From the NCBI GenBank assembly GCA_000996025.1, contig LBYF01000004.1, forward strand, positions 1 through 51,276: a stretch of 51,276 bases of DNA, given 5' to 3'. Positions 21,002 to 34,521 of the stretch are shown in pieces (the stretch's first letter is position 1; every line of letters begins with the position of its first letter). This DNA comes from Parcubacteria group bacterium GW2011_GWA2_40_14. Its GTDB lineage: Bacteria > Patescibacteriota > Minisyncoccia > Phycocordibacterales > DATDWN01. The position numbers and the translations under genes were made by a program. The notes under the pieces were generated by a model. That model was not told the DNA's origin, did no database searches, and worked only from the letters and a program-made list of their open reading frames with translations.

Positions 21002-21727
21002 ATGTCAAAGACACAGGAAACTTCAAATACGGAAAATAGCGTTGTGGACGCCCTTTTTTCTGTCGGGGCGCACTTTGGATTTGTAAAATCTAGACGACAT
21101 CCGTCGGCAAAACCCTTTATTTTTGGGGTTAAAAACAAGATTGAGATATTTGACCTAGAAAAGACCTCCGAAGCTCTCCACAGTGCCCTGGAATTTGTGG
21201 AGACTTTGGGTTCCAAAAATGCTATGATTCTATTTGTCAGTGGCAAAGAAGAGGCAAAAAAAGCCATCGTCTCTACGGCAGAAAGTATCACTGCCCCTTA
21301 TGTCGCTGGACGATTCATTGGAGGAACACTAACCAACTTCCCTGAAATCCGCAAACGAGTGGAAAAAATGGAGCGTCTCGTTTCAGAAAGGGATAAAGGT
21401 GAACTTGCAAAGTACACAAAGAAAGAACGGCTCTTGATTGACCGTGATATTGCCAAATTAAAGGAATTTTTCTTTGGCATAAGCATAATGAAAAATCTGC
21501 CCCAAGCTCTTTTTGTGATAGATGCCAAAGCAGAATCAATTGCAGTCAAAGAAGCCAAAAAAATAGGTATTCCTGTAGTTGCCCTCTGTGGCACAGACAA
21601 CGATTTAAGCCAAATTGATTATCCTATTCCAGGAAACGATTCATCAAAAGCAAGCATTGAATTTTTTCTCCAAAAAGTTGCAAATAGTTACAAAATTGGC
21701 CAACTAAAGAAAGAGGAAGTTAAATAA
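21002..21727 (+). CDS. rpsB: 30S ribosomal protein uS2
   Basis: 241 residues. Typical S2 motifs: VGAHFGFVKSRRHPSAKPFIFG, MILFVSGKEEAKKAI, APYVAGRFIGGTLTNFPEI and VVALCGTDNDLSQIDYPIPGND. TATACC ends 6 nt before the ATG and there is no ribosome site, so a leaderless start is likely despite the structured element upstream. Followed by tsf after 42 bp, the usual bacterial order. Confidence 0.96.
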   Translation: MSKTQETSNTENSVVDALFSVGAHFGFVKSRRHPSAKPFIFGVKNKIEIFDLEKTSEALHSALEFVETLGSKNAMILFVSGKEEAKKAIVSTAESITAPYVAGRFIGGTLTNFPEIRKRVEKMERLVSERDKGELAKYTKKERLLIDRDIAKLKEFFFGISIMKNLPQALFVIDAKAESIAVKEAKKIGIPVVALCGTDNDLSQIDYPIPGNDSSKASIEFFLQKVANSYKIGQLKKEEVK

Positions 21728-21769: not shown

Positions 21770-22228
21770 ATGACTATAACAACAGAACTTGTCAAAAAGT
21801 TGCGTGACGAAACCGGCATCTCTGTCATGCAGTGTAAAAAGGCCCTAGAAGAAGTTGGGGGAGATATGGAAAAAGCCAAAGTTTTTTTACAGCAGAAAAG
21901 CGCTGAAATTAGTCAAAAGAAAGGCGACCGTACTCTCGGGGCTGGTGTTATTTCTTCTTATATTCACGCTACCGGCAATGTTGGCACTATGATAGAGCTT
22001 CTGTGTGAGACTGATTTTGTGGCTAAAAATGAGGAATTCAAAAGTTTGGCTCGTGACATAGCTATGCATGCCACAGCCATGAATCCGGAGAACGAACAAG
22101 CTCTTCTTGTTCAGCCATTTATCAAAAATCCTGAAGTGACAATAACGAACTTGCTCCAGTTGGCAGTGCAGAAATTTGGTGAAAAAATAGAAATTTCACG
22201 CTTTATTCGATATTCTGTTTCGCAATAA
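21770..22228 (+). CDS. tsf: Elongation factor Ts, short form
   Basis: 152 residues, about half the usual length. It retains the UBA-like N-terminus (ELVKKLRDETGISVMQCKKALEEVGGDMEKA) and the nucleotide-exchange motif ETDFVAKNEEFK, plus one core subdomain ending in KFGEKIEISRF. The second core subdomain and coiled coil of E. coli EF-Ts are missing. Short EF-Ts forms are common in CPR bacteria and some other lineages, so this need not be a truncation. Confidence 0.92.
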   Translation: MTITTELVKKLRDETGISVMQCKKALEEVGGDMEKAKVFLQQKSAEISQKKGDRTLGAGVISSYIHATGNVGTMIELLCETDFVAKNEEFKSLARDIAMHATAMNPENEQALLVQPFIKNPEVTITNLLQLAVQKFGEKIEISRFIRYSVSQ

Positions 22229-22819: not shown

Positions 22820-23953
22820 TTAGCGAACAGTCGCCTCGTAATTTTTTTTAGTAGCTTCTTCCAGCTTTTTGTGAATATTATCTATTTCGTTAGATGTTAG
22901 TGTACGGTCAAGTGAGCGGTAGGTGATACGAAAAGCATAACTTATCATACCGCTTCCAAATTTTTCTACATTCTCATATTTGTCCAGAAGTTCTACTTGC
23001 TCAACGATCTCCGGCGCAGTTTCGCGCACGATATCAAAATAATCATTAGGAACGAATGAATTTTTTACTACAAAAGAAATATCGCGGACAATCGGAGGAT
23101 ACTTGGAAACTTCCACAAATTTTGTTCCCAGTTTGAGCTGTTTTGTTACCCGCTCGTCAGATGACCAGAGGAGCCGGATGTCCGGGAGCTCCATGGAAAT
23201 AATCGCAAGTCGCTCCAAACCGAAGCCGAAGGCCCAACCATTGTATCCTTCAATGCCCATTTTTGAAAGCGAACTCTTTTTGGGCATCCCGCCGCCGAGA
23301 ATCTCAATCCATTCTCCATTGACTTCCACTTCCACCTGAAGCGATGGGTCAGTGTACGGAAATGTGTCATCCAAAAAGCGATATTTCACATTTTCACCGA
23401 AGAGACTTTTGACAATCTGCGAGAGGACTTTTCGCAGTTCTTCAATGGGTACAATGCCCATGCTGTCGGGTTGCAAATACAATCCGCCGAACTGGTGGAA
23501 AATATTCATGTGCTTTCTGTCAATTTCATCCTTGCGGAACACTTTGCCATAGCAGACGACACCCACAGCTTCCCCTTGTCCGATTTTTTCTTTGACCTCG
23601 GGAAGATTCAAATAGTAATACCACATGACGGTATCATGTGTGCGCAGGACATGCGTATCATCCGCATAATACGTATCCGACTTGCTTCGGGCCGGATGGT
23701 CGGCGGGGAAATCAAACAAATCAAAGAGTATTCGAGTGTCAATTATTTCCGGAATGTCGATATCGTCAAAGTCTTTGAGTGAAGGCGTGCTTTTGGCCTT
23801 TTCCACAATGTCGCGCAGCGGATTTCCTGGTGTGCGAGAAAGGTCCGGCATGGCCAAATAGCGCTTGATGCGCGCCGTCTCGGCATTCTGCCGCATCTCA
23901 AGCTTTTTCAATATCTCTTTCTCCTCGTCTTTCGAGGCGATGTAGTAGGCCAT
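22820..23953 (-). CDS. pheS: Phenylalanyl-tRNA synthetase, single-chain (mitochondrial-like) type
   Basis: 377 residues from the ATG whose complement is at 23951-23953; the longer frame upstream runs through the promoter. The class II core has FRKDEIDRKHMNIFHQFGGL (motif 2) and NGWAFGFGLERLAIISMELP (motif 3), the latter followed by DIRLLWSSDER, very close to mitochondrial FARS2. A C-terminal FDX-ACB anticodon-binding domain follows (KYPPIVRDISFVVK...YRSLDRTLTSNEID), which in most bacteria sits on the PheT chain. The protein should therefore work alone as a monomer. TATTCT ends 6 nt before the start. Confidence 0.88.
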   Translation of the reverse strand: MAYYIASKDEEKEILKKLEMRQNAETARIKRYLAMPDLSRTPGNPLRDIVEKAKSTPSLKDFDDIDIPEIIDTRILFDLFDFPADHPARSKSDTYYADDTHVLRTHDTVMWYYYLNLPEVKEKIGQGEAVGVVCYGKVFRKDEIDRKHMNIFHQFGGLYLQPDSMGIVPIEELRKVLSQIVKSLFGENVKYRFLDDTFPYTDPSLQVEVEVNGEWIEILGGGMPKKSSLSKMGIEGYNGWAFGFGLERLAIISMELPDIRLLWSSDERVTKQLKLGTKFVEVSKYPPIVRDISFVVKNSFVPNDYFDIVRETAPEIVEQVELLDKYENVEKFGSGMISYAFRITYRSLDRTLTSNEIDNIHKKLEEATKKNYEATVR

Positions 23954-24969: not shown

Positions 24970-25695
24970 CGTACTTACGGATGTGTGCAATCCTTTGCGA
25001 AAAAATAAATAAGTCGGTGCATCATACTATCGAGCGAATCAGTTTTTACACACAAGGCTCTCGATCGGTTCAAAGTCTTTGCTGGGAAAGTTTCAAAAAA
25101 TTATACGCGCACATGTTATGTCCTGAAATGTGATATACGAAAATTCTTTGCCTCGATTGATCAAGAAGTAATGATAAAAGTGCTTGATAGACATGTTGAA
25201 GATCCGGAAATTAAGTGGCTTATTGGACAAGTGTTAAAAAGTTTTCACACAACAAAAGAAGGAATAGGTTTGCCTCTTGGCAACTTAACATCGCAGCTTT
25301 TGGTAAACGCGTATATGCACGAATTTGATGCGTTTGTAAAACAAAAGCTTCGAGTAAAATATTATATCCGCTATGCGGATGATTTCGTTTTTCTTTCGCC
25401 AGATAAAGGATATCTTGAAGAATTATTGCCAAAGATTGATTTATTTCTTCGAGACAAACTCCATCTCTCGCTACATCCCGACAAGGTGTACATACAGTCA
25501 TATACTTCCGGTATTGACTTCCTGGGTTGGACTCACTTTCCACATCATCGAACCATAAGGACGAGTACAAAAAGAAAAGTGCTCAAATCTCTTAAAGGAT
25601 ATCCCCGACCTGAAACTCTTAATTCATATCGAGGACTATTGAGTCATGGCAATACGTACGAAATCCAAAAGAAGACAGGAATCAATGTGCGGTAA
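24970..25695 (+). pseudogene. Reverse transcriptase remnant (DGR-like lineage), 5' part decayed
   Basis: From 25048 one frame reads HKALDRFKVFAGKVSKNYTR, then CYVLKCDIRKFFASIDQE, GLPLGNLTSQLLVN (GxxxSQ, typical of diversity-generating-retroelement-type enzymes), YYIRYADDF (catalytic YADD), and KVYIQSYTSGIDFLGW. The frame is open only from 25009, with no plausible start before 25171, past the first catalytic Asp. Upstream, another frame holds a collapsed match, EKINKSVHHTIERI, where intact proteins have about 15-40 more residues. Frameshifts and deletions therefore removed the N-terminal third. No template repeat, variable repeat or accessory gene is recognisable nearby. Confidence 0.75.
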
Positions 25696-25749
25696 TTTTT
25701 GTCAATTTAAGCTTGTTTTGAATAGGTATTTTTGATATACTGGAAGTTC

Positions 25750-27855
25750 ATGGCAAAGGTAAAAGAAGACAAAAAGGCAGAGAAAACAAGTAGCTATGGA
25801 GCCGAACAAATCACCATATTGGAGGGCCTAGCGCCGGTGCGAAAGCGTCCCGGAATGTACATTGGTACTACTGGACTTGATGGCCTCCAACATCTCATAA
25901 CAGAGATTTTTGATAACGCTCGGGACGAAGCTATGGGTGGTTTTGCAAACGATATTGAGGTCACACTCCTTCCGAACAATCGTGTGCGAGTAACGGACAA
26001 TGGTCGCGGTATTCCGATAGACATTCATAAGCAATCAAAAGTTTCGGCTCTAGAAACTATTATGACCACTCTCCACGCTGGAGGAAAGTTCGGCGAAGAT
26101 AGTTCCGGCTACAAAGTTTCTGGAGGATTGCACGGTGTGGGAGCATCGGTTGTCAATGCCCTTTCTATATATTGTAAAGTGACAGTTCACAAAGATGGTG
26201 GAGTTTATATGCAGGAATACTCTCAAGGAAAGAAAAAAGCTAGTGTTAAAAAAGTTGGCACAACAAAACAGCATGGTACTATCGTCGTTTTTGAGCCAGA
26301 CCCAGCTATTTTTCCAGAAATTGCTTTTGATTTCCAAAAAGTTGTTGACCATTTGCGCCAGCAAGCATATTTGGTCAAAGGTTTGCGTATTACGGTCAAC
26401 GACGCGCGTGAGACACAAGAGAAAATCAAGGAGGATGAGGTTTTCAAGATAAGCGAACTCGGACTAGAAATCCCTAGTATGTCATTTTATTTTGAAGGGG
26501 GACTCTTGTCGCTTGTAAAGTTTTATAACAGTACTCAAAAGCCGATTCACAAAAATATTTTTTATGTGGAAAAGAAGACAAATGAATACGAGTCGGTGGA
26601 AGTGGCTCTCCAATATGTAGATGATATTTCTTCTCGAGTTTTGCCATTTGCAAACAACATTTATACTGCTGAAGGTGGTACGCATGTTACTGGTTTTAAA
26701 ACTGCACTGACTAGAACTTTGAATACATACGGTCGTAAAAATAATCTGATAAAAGAGAGCGAGGATAATTTCACTGGCGAAGATGTCTTGGAAGGATTAA
26801 CTGCGGTTATATCTGTAAAACTTCGGGAGATTCAATTTGAAGGACAGACTAAATCCAAACTCGGCTCCGTAGAAGCCCAGAGTTCGGTCAATACTGTTTT
26901 TTCGGAAAGTTTCTCGTATTTCTTGGAGGAAAATCCGGACGATGCCAGAGCTATTATTATGAAAGTAATTTTGGCCTTGAGAGCACGAAAGGCCGCAAAG
27001 GCGGCAAAAGATTCCATACTTCGCAAAGGGGCATTGGAGGGAATGACACTTCCCGGAAAACTTGCAGACTGTCAAAGTGGCACCACACCTGAAGATGCAG
27101 AACTTTTTGTGGTAGAGGGGGATTCTGCAGGCGGTACGGCTAAAACTGGTCGCGACAGACGAACACAGGCCATATTGCCTTTGCGTGGAAAGATTTTAAA
27201 CATTGAACGTGCTCGTTTGGACAGAATGCTTGAGTCAGAACAAATAAAAAACTTGGTTATCGCTCTCGGCACGGCTATCGGCGATACATTTGATATTTCC
27301 AAATTGCGTTATCACAAAGTCATTATTGCCACAGATGCTGATGTGGACGGCGCGCACATCCGCACACTCATTCTGACGCTCTTGTACAGATTTTTCAAAC
27401 CGCTTATAGACGGAGGATTTATTTACATTGCTCAACCGCCACTTTATAAAATAAAAAAGGGCAAAGAGATTCATTACGCGTACTCTGATGATGAAAAAAT
27501 GGCAGTGGTGGGCGACCTGCCCGCAGACATCGCAGACGAAACGCAGAATGACGCAGAAGTAGAAGTGGAATCTGAAATCGAGAAAGAACAAGCCGAAGGC
27601 AAATTAACATTAGGCGAAGCTACGACTGTAAAAAAATCGAAAATCTCAATCCAGCGTTACAAAGGTCTCGGTGAAATGAATGCCGAAGAGCTATGGGAAA
27701 CAACCATGGACCCCGCTCGTCGCATCCTAAAACAAGTAACCATCGCCGATGCTGTCCTAGCCGACAAAGTTTTTGATATCCTCATGGGCTCTGACGTCCC
27801 ATCCCGCAAGTCGTTCATCCAATCCAACGCCACCAAAGCTACTCTGGATATTTAG
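25750..27855 (+). CDS. gyrB: DNA gyrase subunit B
   Basis: 701 residues from the ATG at 25750; an upstream TTG lies in the promoter. GHKL ATPase: ITEIFDNARDEAMGGFA, VRVTDNGRGIPID, HAGGKFGEDSSGYKVSGGLHGVGASVVNALS. The TOPRIM domain has FVVEGDSAGGTAKTGRD and the DADVDGAHI metal motif, and the C-terminus ends in QRYKGLGEMNAEELWETTMDP. An acidic insertion of about 45 residues (ADIADETQNDAEVEVESEIE...) lies just before the QRYKGLG segment. With GyrA it supercoils DNA. TATACT ends 8 nt before the start, so the leader is minimal. Confidence 0.96.
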   Translation: MAKVKEDKKAEKTSSYGAEQITILEGLAPVRKRPGMYIGTTGLDGLQHLITEIFDNARDEAMGGFANDIEVTLLPNNRVRVTDNGRGIPIDIHKQSKVSALETIMTTLHAGGKFGEDSSGYKVSGGLHGVGASVVNALSIYCKVTVHKDGGVYMQEYSQGKKKASVKKVGTTKQHGTIVVFEPDPAIFPEIAFDFQKVVDHLRQQAYLVKGLRITVNDARETQEKIKEDEVFKISELGLEIPSMSFYFEGGLLSLVKFYNSTQKPIHKNIFYVEKKTNEYESVEVALQYVDDISSRVLPFANNIYTAEGGTHVTGFKTALTRTLNTYGRKNNLIKESEDNFTGEDVLEGLTAVISVKLREIQFEGQTKSKLGSVEAQSSVNTVFSESFSYFLEENPDDARAIIMKVILALRARKAAKAAKDSILRKGALEGMTLPGKLADCQSGTTPEDAELFVVEGDSAGGTAKTGRDRRTQAILPLRGKILNIERARLDRMLESEQIKNLVIALGTAIGDTFDISKLRYHKVIIATDADVDGAHIRTLILTLLYRFFKPLIDGGFIYIAQPPLYKIKKGKEIHYAYSDDEKMAVVGDLPADIADETQNDAEVEVESEIEKEQAEGKLTLGEATTVKKSKISIQRYKGLGEMNAEELWETTMDPARRILKQVTIADAVLADKVFDILMGSDVPSRKSFIQSNATKATLDI

Positions 27856-28822: not shown

Positions 28823-30070
28823 TTATTTTTTGTTTTTAATTTCGCTAGTAAGTTTTTCTAAAACTTCTTCTTTTGAAAATGCTCCGATTTGGCCGTTATC
28901 GCGGGATTCCAAAGTTACTTTATCCGCCTCAATTTCTTTATCGCCGATAACTATCCAGTACGGGATTTTGTTATTTTTTGCATCACGGACTTTTGAACCG
29001 AGGTTCTCATCAGCGAGATCTAGTTCTGCGCGAATATTATTTTCTCGTAACATGTCAAAGACGGTCTTTGACATTGTGTTGTGATTTTCCCGCACCGGAA
29101 TAACTTTAACTTGAACAGGTGACATCCATAGTGGCAAGTTACCTTCATAATGTTCCAGAAGGACGGCCACACAGCGTTCAATAGAGCCGGTAATGGCGGA
29201 ATGAATCATAACAATGCGTTCTTTTTCACCTTTTTCATTTACACAAGTTAGATCAAATTTTTCTGGCATATTCATATCGAGTTGGATTGTAGCCACTTGC
29301 CATTCACGCCCAGCAGAATTTTTTGCCATGAAATCTAATTTTGGTCCGTATAGAGCGGCTTCTCCTGGACCTTCAAAATAATCCGCGCCACGGGATTTAG
29401 CAATTTCTCGCAACTCACTTTCTGCAGTATCCCAGATCTCTTTTGTTCCAATATATTTATTCATATCTTTTGGATCTCGGAAAGAAAGGCGAACCTGAAG
29501 TGTAAATCCAAATATTTTATAAAATGTATCAACAATATCCCAAATTTTTAGAAATTCTTCCTTTATTTGGCTCGTGCGGCAGAAAACATGAGAATCATCT
29601 TGAGTAATAGACAAAACGCGAGTTAGTCCTCCGAGCTCTCCTGACTGTTCATCTCGATAGACCATTGTAGTCTCGGCATAGCGTTGCGGCATTTCCCGAT
29701 ATGAATGTGGTTTGCGGGCAAAAATCTGCGTATGATGCGGACAGTTCATCGGCTTCAAGGCATATTCTTTGCCTTCACGTGAGGTAATCCGGAAAAGCTC
29801 CTCGGAAAATTTATCCCAATGTCCGCTTGTTTCGTACAAGTCCTTTTTTGTGATGTGGGGAATAGTTACTTTACCGTAGTCATTTTCGGAACGTAATTCC
29901 CAGACGAATTTATCAAGTTCTTCGCGCAAAATATTTCCTTTTGGTGTCCACAGGGGTAGTCCTGAACCAACAAGATCTGAAAAAGTAAAGAGATCAAGCT
30001 CCTTACCTATTTTTCGGTGGTCATTCTTCTGCATCTCGCTTTCTTTCTCTTTTGCTTCGTCATTTTCCAT
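28823..30070 (-). CDS. thrS: Threonyl-tRNA synthetase without TGS and editing domains
   Basis: 415 residues against about 640 in E. coli. It begins almost directly with the class II catalytic core (LVGSGLPLWTPKGNILREEL; KPMNCPHHTQIF with the zinc Cys; MVYRDEQSGELGGLTRVLSITQDDSHVFC; AITGSIERCVAVLLEHYEG) and ends in the anticodon-binding domain. The N-terminal TGS and editing (N2) domains are absent, so mischarged Ser-tRNA-Thr would need another editor. The anticodon domain contains MSKTVFDM, encoded by a 23-bp palindrome also found in rnhB and rnr. Confidence 0.94.
   Translation of the reverse strand: MENDEAKEKESEMQKNDHRKIGKELDLFTFSDLVGSGLPLWTPKGNILREELDKFVWELRSENDYGKVTIPHITKKDLYETSGHWDKFSEELFRITSREGKEYALKPMNCPHHTQIFARKPHSYREMPQRYAETTMVYRDEQSGELGGLTRVLSITQDDSHVFCRTSQIKEEFLKIWDIVDTFYKIFGFTLQVRLSFRDPKDMNKYIGTKEIWDTAESELREIAKSRGADYFEGPGEAALYGPKLDFMAKNSAGREWQVATIQLDMNMPEKFDLTCVNEKGEKERIVMIHSAITGSIERCVAVLLEHYEGNLPLWMSPVQVKVIPVRENHNTMSKTVFDMLRENNIRAELDLADENLGSKVRDAKNNKIPYWIVIGDKEIEADKVTLESRDNGQIGAFSKEEVLEKLTSEIKNKK
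29052..29074. repeat. Coding palindrome inside thrS
   Basis: ATGTCAAAGAC-G-GTCTTTGACAT, perfect 11-bp arms. In the gene it encodes MSKTVFDM at the start of the anticodon-binding domain helix. Same family as 34000-34055 and 44094-44120. Confidence 0.75.
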
Positions 30071-33804: not shown

Positions 33805-34521
33805 ATGAAATTTATAGTTGGTATAGATGAAGTGGGAAGGGGACCTTTGGCTGGGCCAGTGACGGTTTGCGTCGTGGCTTGCGAAGAAAAAATGTACAAC
33901 AAATTGAAACGTGACAGACGACTTCCGCCTACAGGAAAAGATAGTAAAAAACTTTCCCCGCTTGCTCGGGAAAAGTACGCAACATATTTAAAATTATTAG
34001 TGTCAAAGACTGCCTTTGACATGCGGAGCCAAATGTCAAAGGCAGTCTTTGACACGGCAATAGTCCATATTTCAAATAAAGTCATTGATGCGAAGGGAAT
34101 TTCTTTTGCAATAAAAAAAGCAATTACCGAAGGGATTAAAAAGTTAAAACTCAATCCAAGAAATTGTCGGGTTTTACTAGACGGGGGACTAAAAGCTCCA
34201 AAACAATTTAAAAATCAGAGGACTATTAGAAAAGGTGATGAGAAAGAAAAAATCATTGCTTGGGCCTCAATTCTAGCAAAAGTTTCGCGAGATGAACTTA
34301 TGCACAGAGCCGCAAAAAAGTTTCCGCGTTATGGGTTTGAAAATCATAAAGGATATGGAACTCTGAAACACAGATTAGCTATTTCAAAGTATGGAATATC
34401 AGTTGTCCACAGGGTAAGCTATTGCAGAAATCTTTCCTTCCACATTTTCTTACAGTTACAGCTTGAACAAGGTGCCGGGAGAGTTATCCCGGTGCCTTTT
34501 ATTTTTGAGTGTAGTAGTTGA
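33805..34521 (+). CDS. rnhB: Ribonuclease HII with in-frame insertion and C-terminal run-on
   Basis: 238 residues. The catalytic start IVGIDEVGRGPLAGPV (DEVGRG), the TGKDSKKLSPLAREKY motif, the second acidic motif LLDGGLKAP, and SILAKVSRDELMHRAAKKFP are intact. It cleaves RNA in RNA-DNA hybrids at single ribonucleotides. Between REKYATYLKLL and AIVHISNKVID lies a 19-residue insertion encoded by two inverted palindromes. The normal end is near YGISVVHRVSYC; about 32 further residues read through a rho-independent terminator before the stop. TATAAA ends 6 nt upstream of the ATG. Confidence 0.9.
   Translation: MKFIVGIDEVGRGPLAGPVTVCVVACEEKMYNKLKRDRRLPPTGKDSKKLSPLAREKYATYLKLLVSKTAFDMRSQMSKAVFDTAIVHISNKVIDAKGISFAIKKAITEGIKKLKLNPRNCRVLLDGGLKAPKQFKNQRTIRKGDEKEKIIAWASILAKVSRDELMHRAAKKFPRYGFENHKGYGTLKHRLAISKYGISVVHRVSYCRNLSFHIFLQLQLEQGAGRVIPVPFIFECSS
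34000..34055. repeat. Paired coding palindromes inside rnhB
   Basis: GTGTCAAAGACTGCC... (34000-34022) and its exact reverse complement (34033-34055), 10 bp apart, form a 23-bp stem; each copy is also nearly palindromic. They encode VSKTAFDM and MSKAVFDT in the same frame as the thrS and rnr copies. Confidence 0.8.
34471..34506 (+). terminator. Terminator located before the rnhB stop codon
   Basis: GGTGCCGGGA-GAGTTA-TCCCGGTGCC then TTTTATTTTT. It ends 12 nt before the in-frame TGA at 34519-34521. Confidence 0.75.

Follow-up and report, generated by a model that had tools for sequence, protein, structure and literature searches.

The window, that is, the whole 51,276-nucleotide stretch of Parcubacteria group bacterium GW2011_GWA2_40_14 analysed here, carries a gene that very probably encodes the sole housekeeping phenylalanyl-tRNA synthetase (PheRS) of its host, an enzyme of single-chain, mitochondrial-type architecture (PheRS-M) replacing the PheS2-PheT2 form. 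In standard teaching, PheRS counts as the most complex synthetase, and its monomeric form is treated as something peculiar to mitochondria. PheRS-M constitutes one clade within the Paceibacteria (Parcubacteria), where it and pheST have switched repeatedly.

The PheRS-M kind already goes by that name in AARS Online, where FARS2 serves as its example (PMC11580382), and some of the present finding may be implicit in existing database annotations. In the open-licence literature, which leaves subscription journals and preprints mostly outside, no description of a PheRS-M enzyme in Patescibacteria was found, nor of its use as sole PheRS by bacteria, the exclusion of PheT, the shared gyrB locus or the B2 companion described below. 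The single-chain PheRS is likewise not treated in the accessible part of PMC6744442.

Domain organisation and sequence motifs

The gene and the domains of its product are as follows.

22820..23953, minus strand: single-chain (mitochondrial-type, PheRS-M) phenylalanyl-tRNA synthetase gene, 377 aa
23852..23929, minus strand: N-terminal helices, residues 9-34 (structural alignment)
23138..23824, minus strand: class II catalytic core, PF01409, residues 44-272 (Pfam)
22823..23107, minus strand: FDX-ACB anticodon-binding domain, PF03147, residues 283-377 (Pfam)

By ORF translation, the reading frame starts with an ATG at 23953 and stops at 22820-22822, while a possible in-frame 5' extension to 24139 collides with a plus-strand ORF. 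Pfam recovered both halves of the fusion described in the initial annotation in the window protein (P0001), the catalytic core as tRNA-synt_2d (E=2.1e-50) and the second domain as FDX-ACB (E=2.5e-22). In bacterial PheST, by contrast, FDX-ACB is the C-terminal domain of PheT. The two motifs that had been attributed to mitochondrial FARS2, GWAFGxGLERLA and PDIRLxW, are also present, as GWAFGFGLERLA at residues 239-250 and PDIRLLW at residues 257-263, and both are conserved in two alignments of relatives (A1, A2).

The closest PDB sequences to the window protein are six human mitochondrial PheRS entries (204-208 bits), while the top bacterial PheS reaches 114 bits at most. Among NCBIfam models, TIGR00469 pheS_mito ranks first (223.4 bits, curated cut-off 258.35), followed by SrmL NF051887 (214.9 bits, cut-off 300) and pheS (157 bits, cut-off 237), and the protein thus falls under the curated cut-off of all three, which in the case of pheS_mito counts against the assignment. 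TIGR00469 was presumably built on eukaryotic sequences, and its cut-off is a naming threshold, not a feature of the enzyme itself; automatic naming may therefore miss PheRS-M.

Predicted structure

The AlphaFold model of the window protein, built from 40 aligned sequences (the protein itself and 39 of the 80 loci fetched from a contig collection, the best 80 of at least 553), has a mean pLDDT of 93 and a pTM of 0.89. The first seven Foldseek matches to the model are all human mitochondrial PheRS, including 3cmq, and the closed human forms align along its whole chain (TM 0.78-0.81). In VIA, whose listing is dominated by closed-state rows and whose scope is the families listed there, the closed human forms gave Z 37.7-38.3 over 349-352 residues with an rmsd of 2.4-2.6 Å, the alignment beginning at model residues 9-12 and ending at 377, whereas bacterial PheS aligned with residues 42-274 only (Z 20-24). 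This whole-chain match supports the mitochondrial-type assignment made at the outset. Against the open, tRNA-bound human form (3tup), Z was 27.5 and the rmsd 19 Å because the FDX-ACB domain has moved, which fits two structures that differ solely in how their domains are arranged. Judging from the model, the window enzyme would have to open to bind tRNA, as human mitochondrial PheRS does.

Residue A241 of the window protein, A294 of E. coli PheS and an Ala in human FARS2 align with one another. This is at odds with a review that describes the critical Ala as missing from mitochondrial enzymes (PMC7373986).

Absence of PheT

The host genome is a MAG of 637,511 bases in 26 contigs, 97.8% complete with 3.14% contamination. 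Profile searches of this genome gave no match to B5 or to the editing domain B3_4 (controls positive in 14/14 genomes for each) and no second FDX-ACB beyond that of the PheRS-M gene (controls positive in 11/14). The search for a pheT elsewhere in the genome, which the initial annotation had proposed as a check on its claim of PheT loss, thus found none. PF01409 also matches two other products of the host, namely SrmL, discussed below, and a LysRS-like frame.

The same pattern was seen across 286 Patescibacteria genomes, the host included. A strong PheRS-M match was present in 25 of them (51-100% identity), although the match of G089 is truncated where its contig stops, that of G201 lies in two contig pieces and that of G253 in two overlapping frames. 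B5 was absent from all 25 carriers and present in 248 of the 261 other genomes, 18 of the B5-negative genomes having been identified by subtraction from the list. With a completeness of at least 90% required, B5 occurred in 0/25 carriers vs 226/229 others (Fisher p=1e-31). Both B5 and PheRS-M were missing from 13 more genomes, ten of which are <90% complete.

Two readings would deny the window protein its role as single-chain housekeeping enzyme. The first concerns a second PheS-like protein of the host, P0002 (C3:39652-40725; L002 1156-2271, minus strand), which matches SrmL, the 'PheS-related mystery ligase' (NF051887), with 396 bits and is the only protein over the SrmL cut-off among 116 Patescibacteria searched. 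That the window protein is itself an SrmL-like ligase with another substrate is very improbable: it shares the two-domain layout and scores 215 bits to NF051887, yet this is below 300, the genome offers no PheRS candidate besides SrmL, the eight other genomes with an SrmL match are all PheRS-M carriers and none of them exceeds the cut-off, and P0002, unlike PheRS-M, has not retained the anticodon residues of FDX-ACB. The second reading, an ordinary PheS whose pheT was missed in an incomplete or contaminated MAG, has a negligible chance of being right, since despite the 26 contigs and 97.8% completeness PheRS-M has its own FDX-ACB fusion, B5 is missing from 25/25 carriers that are each at least 90% complete, and mutual exclusion across the 286 genomes rules out an assembly gap as the cause of the missing PheT.

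Several further observations were made on SrmL. In the 0.64-Mb host genome, P0002 adjoins an ORF resembling a PP-loop ATPase. SrmL-like genes also occur on plasmids of Glutamicibacter and Azotobacter, and a 634,780-bp record labelled uncultured phage (L175, LR745206.1) holds a 362-aa SrmL-like frame with its match at 1501-2367.

Distribution

A scan of the contig collection returned at least 553 relatives of PheRS-M, of which the best 80 were kept. The titles among these 80 name Zambryskibacteria, Kaiserbacteria, Nomurabacteria, Colwellbacteria, Parcubacteria or Paceibacterota, or read 'bacterium' only, and among the matches listed the relatives are ~55-72% identical to the window protein. One scan of viral contigs found no PheRS-M relative. 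Sixteen phage records matched the window protein, comprising the SrmL-like L175 and 15 partial matches, and no match among plasmid records spanned >80% of the query.

The gyrB locus

The conserved neighbour of PheRS-M is gyrB, and the genes on its other side were named from their sequences.

25732..27855, plus strand: gyrB
21002-21727, plus strand: rpsB
21770-22228, plus strand: tsf

Conservation was assessed over 104 loci, 24 from phylum genomes and 80 from the contig collection (the best 80 of at least 553). The fetched flank contained gyrB at 77 of them (20/24 and 57/80), while on the opposite flank rpsB matched at 7, tsf at 23 and prfA at 8 of the 104. In the window, PheRS-M and gyrB are divergent and separated by a reverse-transcriptase-like fragment and another ORF. 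From its sequence, the fragment (25171-25695), with YADD, appears to be related to reverse transcriptases. A tRNA beside the PheRS gene was considered as a linked tRNAPhe and rejected, as it is tRNA-Thr(TGT) and tRNAPhe lies on another contig. A scan of 24 PheRS-M loci (L006-L029) showed 23 to be free of tRNA genes, while L026 has three other tRNAs.

The same neighbour is found in relatives with the two-chain enzyme. It was detected in 19 of 20 PheST-bearing relatives. Ten of the 19 have pheT on the gyrB strand, ending at most 1.5 kb upstream of gyrB. In six more (G185, G191, G279, G223, G231, G248), pheS or B5 lies ~8 kb or nearer to gyrB on the same contig and strand, while gyrB and pheST are on different contigs in G281 and G118, and G103 was not placed. 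PheT adjoins gyrB in other families as well (L035, L165, L168). With gyrB nearby in both states, the single-chain gene occupies the pheS-pheT position of relatives.

Elsewhere in the window, a 21-nt palindrome, TGTCAAAGRCNGYCTTTGACA, was noticed at 29052-29073, 34000-34021 and 34033-34054. It is in frame in a thrS-like ORF (once) and an rnhB-like ORF (twice), where it codes SK(T/A)(V/A)FD on either strand, and it occurs at four places in the host genome, the reversed control pattern at none.

A companion gene and reduced PheST

At some loci, PheRS-M is accompanied by a same-strand ORF of 122-184 aa matching E. coli PheT residues ~42-150, which correspond to the B2 tRNA-binding OB fold. Many CPR PheRS beta chains lack B2 according to PMC5370408. 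The companion was found at 14 of the 24 phylum-genome and 2 of the 80 contig-collection loci (the best 80 of at least 553), namely L008, L010-L015, L017, L018, L020, L021, L023, L025, L029, L127 and L140, and it mostly abuts PheRS-M, upstream in nine and downstream in seven. Three companions tested match Pfam tRNA_bind, with the N-terminal part of pheT_bact as best NCBIfam model, then YtpR and TapR. On the basis of these matches, the companion is proposed to act as a tRNA-binding helper in trans. No PheT-B2-like companion was found in the window locus or the host genome, whose sole PF01588 protein looks CsaA/Trbp111-like.

Reduced forms were also observed among PheST relatives. In L161, L162 and L167, PheS is ~235-250 aa without the N-terminal coiled coil, and in L161, L162, L167, L173 and L174, PheT is 616-679 aa and lacks the first ~145-160 residues, yet it retains B3/B4, B5 and FDX-ACB where scanned (L161, L167, L173).

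Phylogeny and switching

The catalytic-core tree comprised 76 rows: 41 PheRS-M, 30 PheS (including E. coli, Legionella, Enterococcus, Fusobacterium, Aminobacter and Tsukamurella), four SrmL and human FARS2. PheRS-M (100/97), PheS (99/99) and SrmL (100/100) each form one supported clade, so the window protein falls outside the sampled PheS, and it does so without a paired pheT. When PheS and PheRS-M were analysed alone, two sister positions for PheRS-M were tested and not rejected, one beside the short PheS of G163 and G256 (p-AU 0.40), the other beside five PheS from the class (p-AU 0.26).

The position of FARS2, represented by one partial human row on a long branch, so that membership with it is not statistically secure, varies between domains. 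Free catalytic-core trees place FARS2 with PheS (89/46 and 87/57) without significant support, which counts against its kinship with PheRS-M, and neither FARS2 with PheRS-M (p-AU 0.34) nor FARS2 with SrmL (p-AU 0.48) is rejected. In the FDX-ACB tree (48 rows, 104 columns, several very long PheT branches), FARS2 groups with PheRS-M with support (95/96), and the best tree sets it among the PheRS-M rows (71/70). Next to PheRS-M and FARS2 stands the PheT of G163 and G256, weakly (89/57), and the data also tolerate a clade of PheT and FARS2 (p-AU 0.27). The concatenated tree joins FARS2 to PheRS-M at 83/28, with PheST-FARS2 being as likely (p-AU 0.48). The phylogenetic check suggested with the initial annotation therefore came out in two parts: PheRS-M lies outside all 30 PheS with strong support, while for FARS2 the core admits alternatives at p-AU 0.34-0.48. 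PheRS-M is likely the sister of FARS2, a relationship backed by the FDX-ACB tree and the structure and not by the catalytic core.

To trace switching, an RpoB tree was built for 29 genomes (13 PheRS-M, 16 PheST) picked to include mixed families; a 30th, G191, had no RpoB match. The PheRS-M/PheST label changes seven times on this tree, at least six of the changes being forced by well-supported branches, and four families (f2, f3, f36, f61) hold both states. G000 and G214 are supported RpoB sisters (100/99), yet their PheRS-M fall in two different supported clades. For this conflict between PheRS-M branching and RpoB, gene exchange at the PheRS-M locus is the best explanation.

Origin of the single-chain enzyme

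The account we tentatively place first, by a narrow margin, is that an old single-chain PheRS lineage entered the Patescibacteria, displaced pheST at gyrB and moved by homologous recombination, with FARS2 and possibly SrmL as cousins. It agrees with the PheRS-M clade outside PheS, with the shared architecture of FARS2 and its grouping on the FDX-ACB tree, and with the switches, at least six, that RpoB implies for an enzyme forming a single clade, and the different clades of the G000 and G214 enzymes imply transfer. Yet unless its flanks were homologous, the first copy is unlikely to have landed at precisely the pheST locus by chance, and the placements of FARS2 and SrmL are sensitive to long branches.

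A serious contender, tentative in its turn, is in-situ deletion and fusion, in which an ancestral Patescibacterium lost most of pheT from pheS-pheT-gyrB, so that the pheS core became continuous with the FDX-ACB-coding 3' end of pheT upstream of gyrB, and the product then spread by recombination. PheRS-M and pheST indeed share their place beside gyrB (in the ten and the six PheST relatives above), relatives of the same order have a short PheS without the N-terminal coiled coil and a PheT without the first ~150 residues, and the FDX-ACB of PheRS-M branches, weakly, beside the PheT of two such relatives, with a sister position to their PheS not rejected either. Against this, the PheRS-M cores are distant from every sampled PheS (~2.1 changes per site between groups), their N-terminal helices and linker are closer to FARS2, and the companion B2 gene, found on either side of PheRS-M, is no clean remnant. 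A fuller scenario combining deletion-fusion at the Patescibacterial pheS-pheT-gyrB, B2 kept separately in some lineages, spread in situ, and this enzyme as the source of eukaryotic FARS2 is unlikely as a whole.

Less probable still is the capture of a mitochondrial FARS2 gene by Patescibacteria. While FARS2 does fall among PheRS-M rows on the FDX-ACB tree, it does so at only 71/70 and with the direction open. Among the matches listed, PheRS-M is diverse (the ~55-72% identity given above) and is spread over many Parcubacteria lineages, where its locus is bacterial and conserved, and the segment between the two matched pieces comprises 12 residues (160-171) in the window protein and 43 (155-197) in human FARS2.

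Proposed function

The catalytic core would make Phe-AMP and charge tRNAPhe, with the enzyme presumably acting as a monomer. The C-terminal FDX-ACB would bind the anticodon (G34), probably swinging out of the modelled closed state as in human mitochondrial PheRS. The host tRNAPhe(GAA), encoded on another contig, has G1-C72, A73 and an encoded CCA, and G1-C72 and A73 belong to the element set reviewed for human mitochondrial PheRS in the available part of PMC9976931. The same part lists Asp729, Tyr731, Ser742 and Arg780 as anticodon contacts of T. thermophilus PheT. Residues D324, Y326, S338 and R377 of the window protein have the same letters in the aligned E. coli PheT, through which they match the T. 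thermophilus contacts by eye. Among 40 sequences from the best 80 of at least 553, D324, S338 and R377 are invariant and Y326 is at least 90% conserved.

Because the B3/B4 domain is missing with PheT, post-transfer editing has presumably been lost. Mischarged Tyr- or m-Tyr-tRNAPhe would then not be edited after transfer, and accuracy would have to rest on the active site. In mitochondrial PheRS, which lacks editing, the loss goes with higher active-site specificity, as stated in the portions available of PMC7373986 and PMC11415595.

A bacterial PheRS-M clade at the pheST locus of close relatives provides natural before-and-after pairs. Such pairs make it possible to ask how a synthetase comes to dispense with a partner of 600-850 residues along with proofreading, how tiny episymbionts bear mistranslation at Phe codons, and whether FARS2 has a bacterial ancestor. 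For annotation, PheRS-M genomes can look short of an essential gene, pheT.

Comparison with known systems

Mitochondrial PheRS (FARS2; PDB 3cmq, 3tup; TIGR00469) is the closest known system, being likewise a single chain with a class II core and a C-terminal FDX-ACB. It shares with PheRS-M the N-terminal helices and linker, the closed-state fold over 350 residues and the lack of an editing domain. The window enzyme differs in being bacterial, in being the sole PheRS of its host and in adjoining gyrB in relatives. The human and window proteins are ~35% identical over the structural alignment, and the extra residues of FARS2, absent from the window protein, fall between motif 2 and the next helix.

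Bacterial PheS2-PheT2 (PheRS-B) has a homologous core and FDX-ACB and lies beside gyrB in Patescibacteria, whereas PheRS-M is one gene instead of two and lacks B1, B3/B4, B5, B6/B7 and the N-terminal coiled coil. SrmL has the same two-part layout as PheRS-M but is a separate clade, and the DxY anticodon contact is not kept in P0002. The stand-alone PheT-N-like tRNA-binding proteins YtpR and TapR (NF045760, NF045867) resemble the companion gene of 16/104 loci (80 of these being the best 80 of at least 553). The companion differs in being paired with a single-chain PheRS, and all three companions tested fall under both cut-offs, one of them narrowly under that of YtpR (98.9 vs 100). Finally, the editing-deficient PheRS of Mycoplasma likewise represents a small-genome bacterium without PheRS proofreading, as described in the accessible parts of PMC7373986 and PMC11415595. 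While Mycoplasma keeps a degenerate editing domain, in the window organism the whole subunit is gone.
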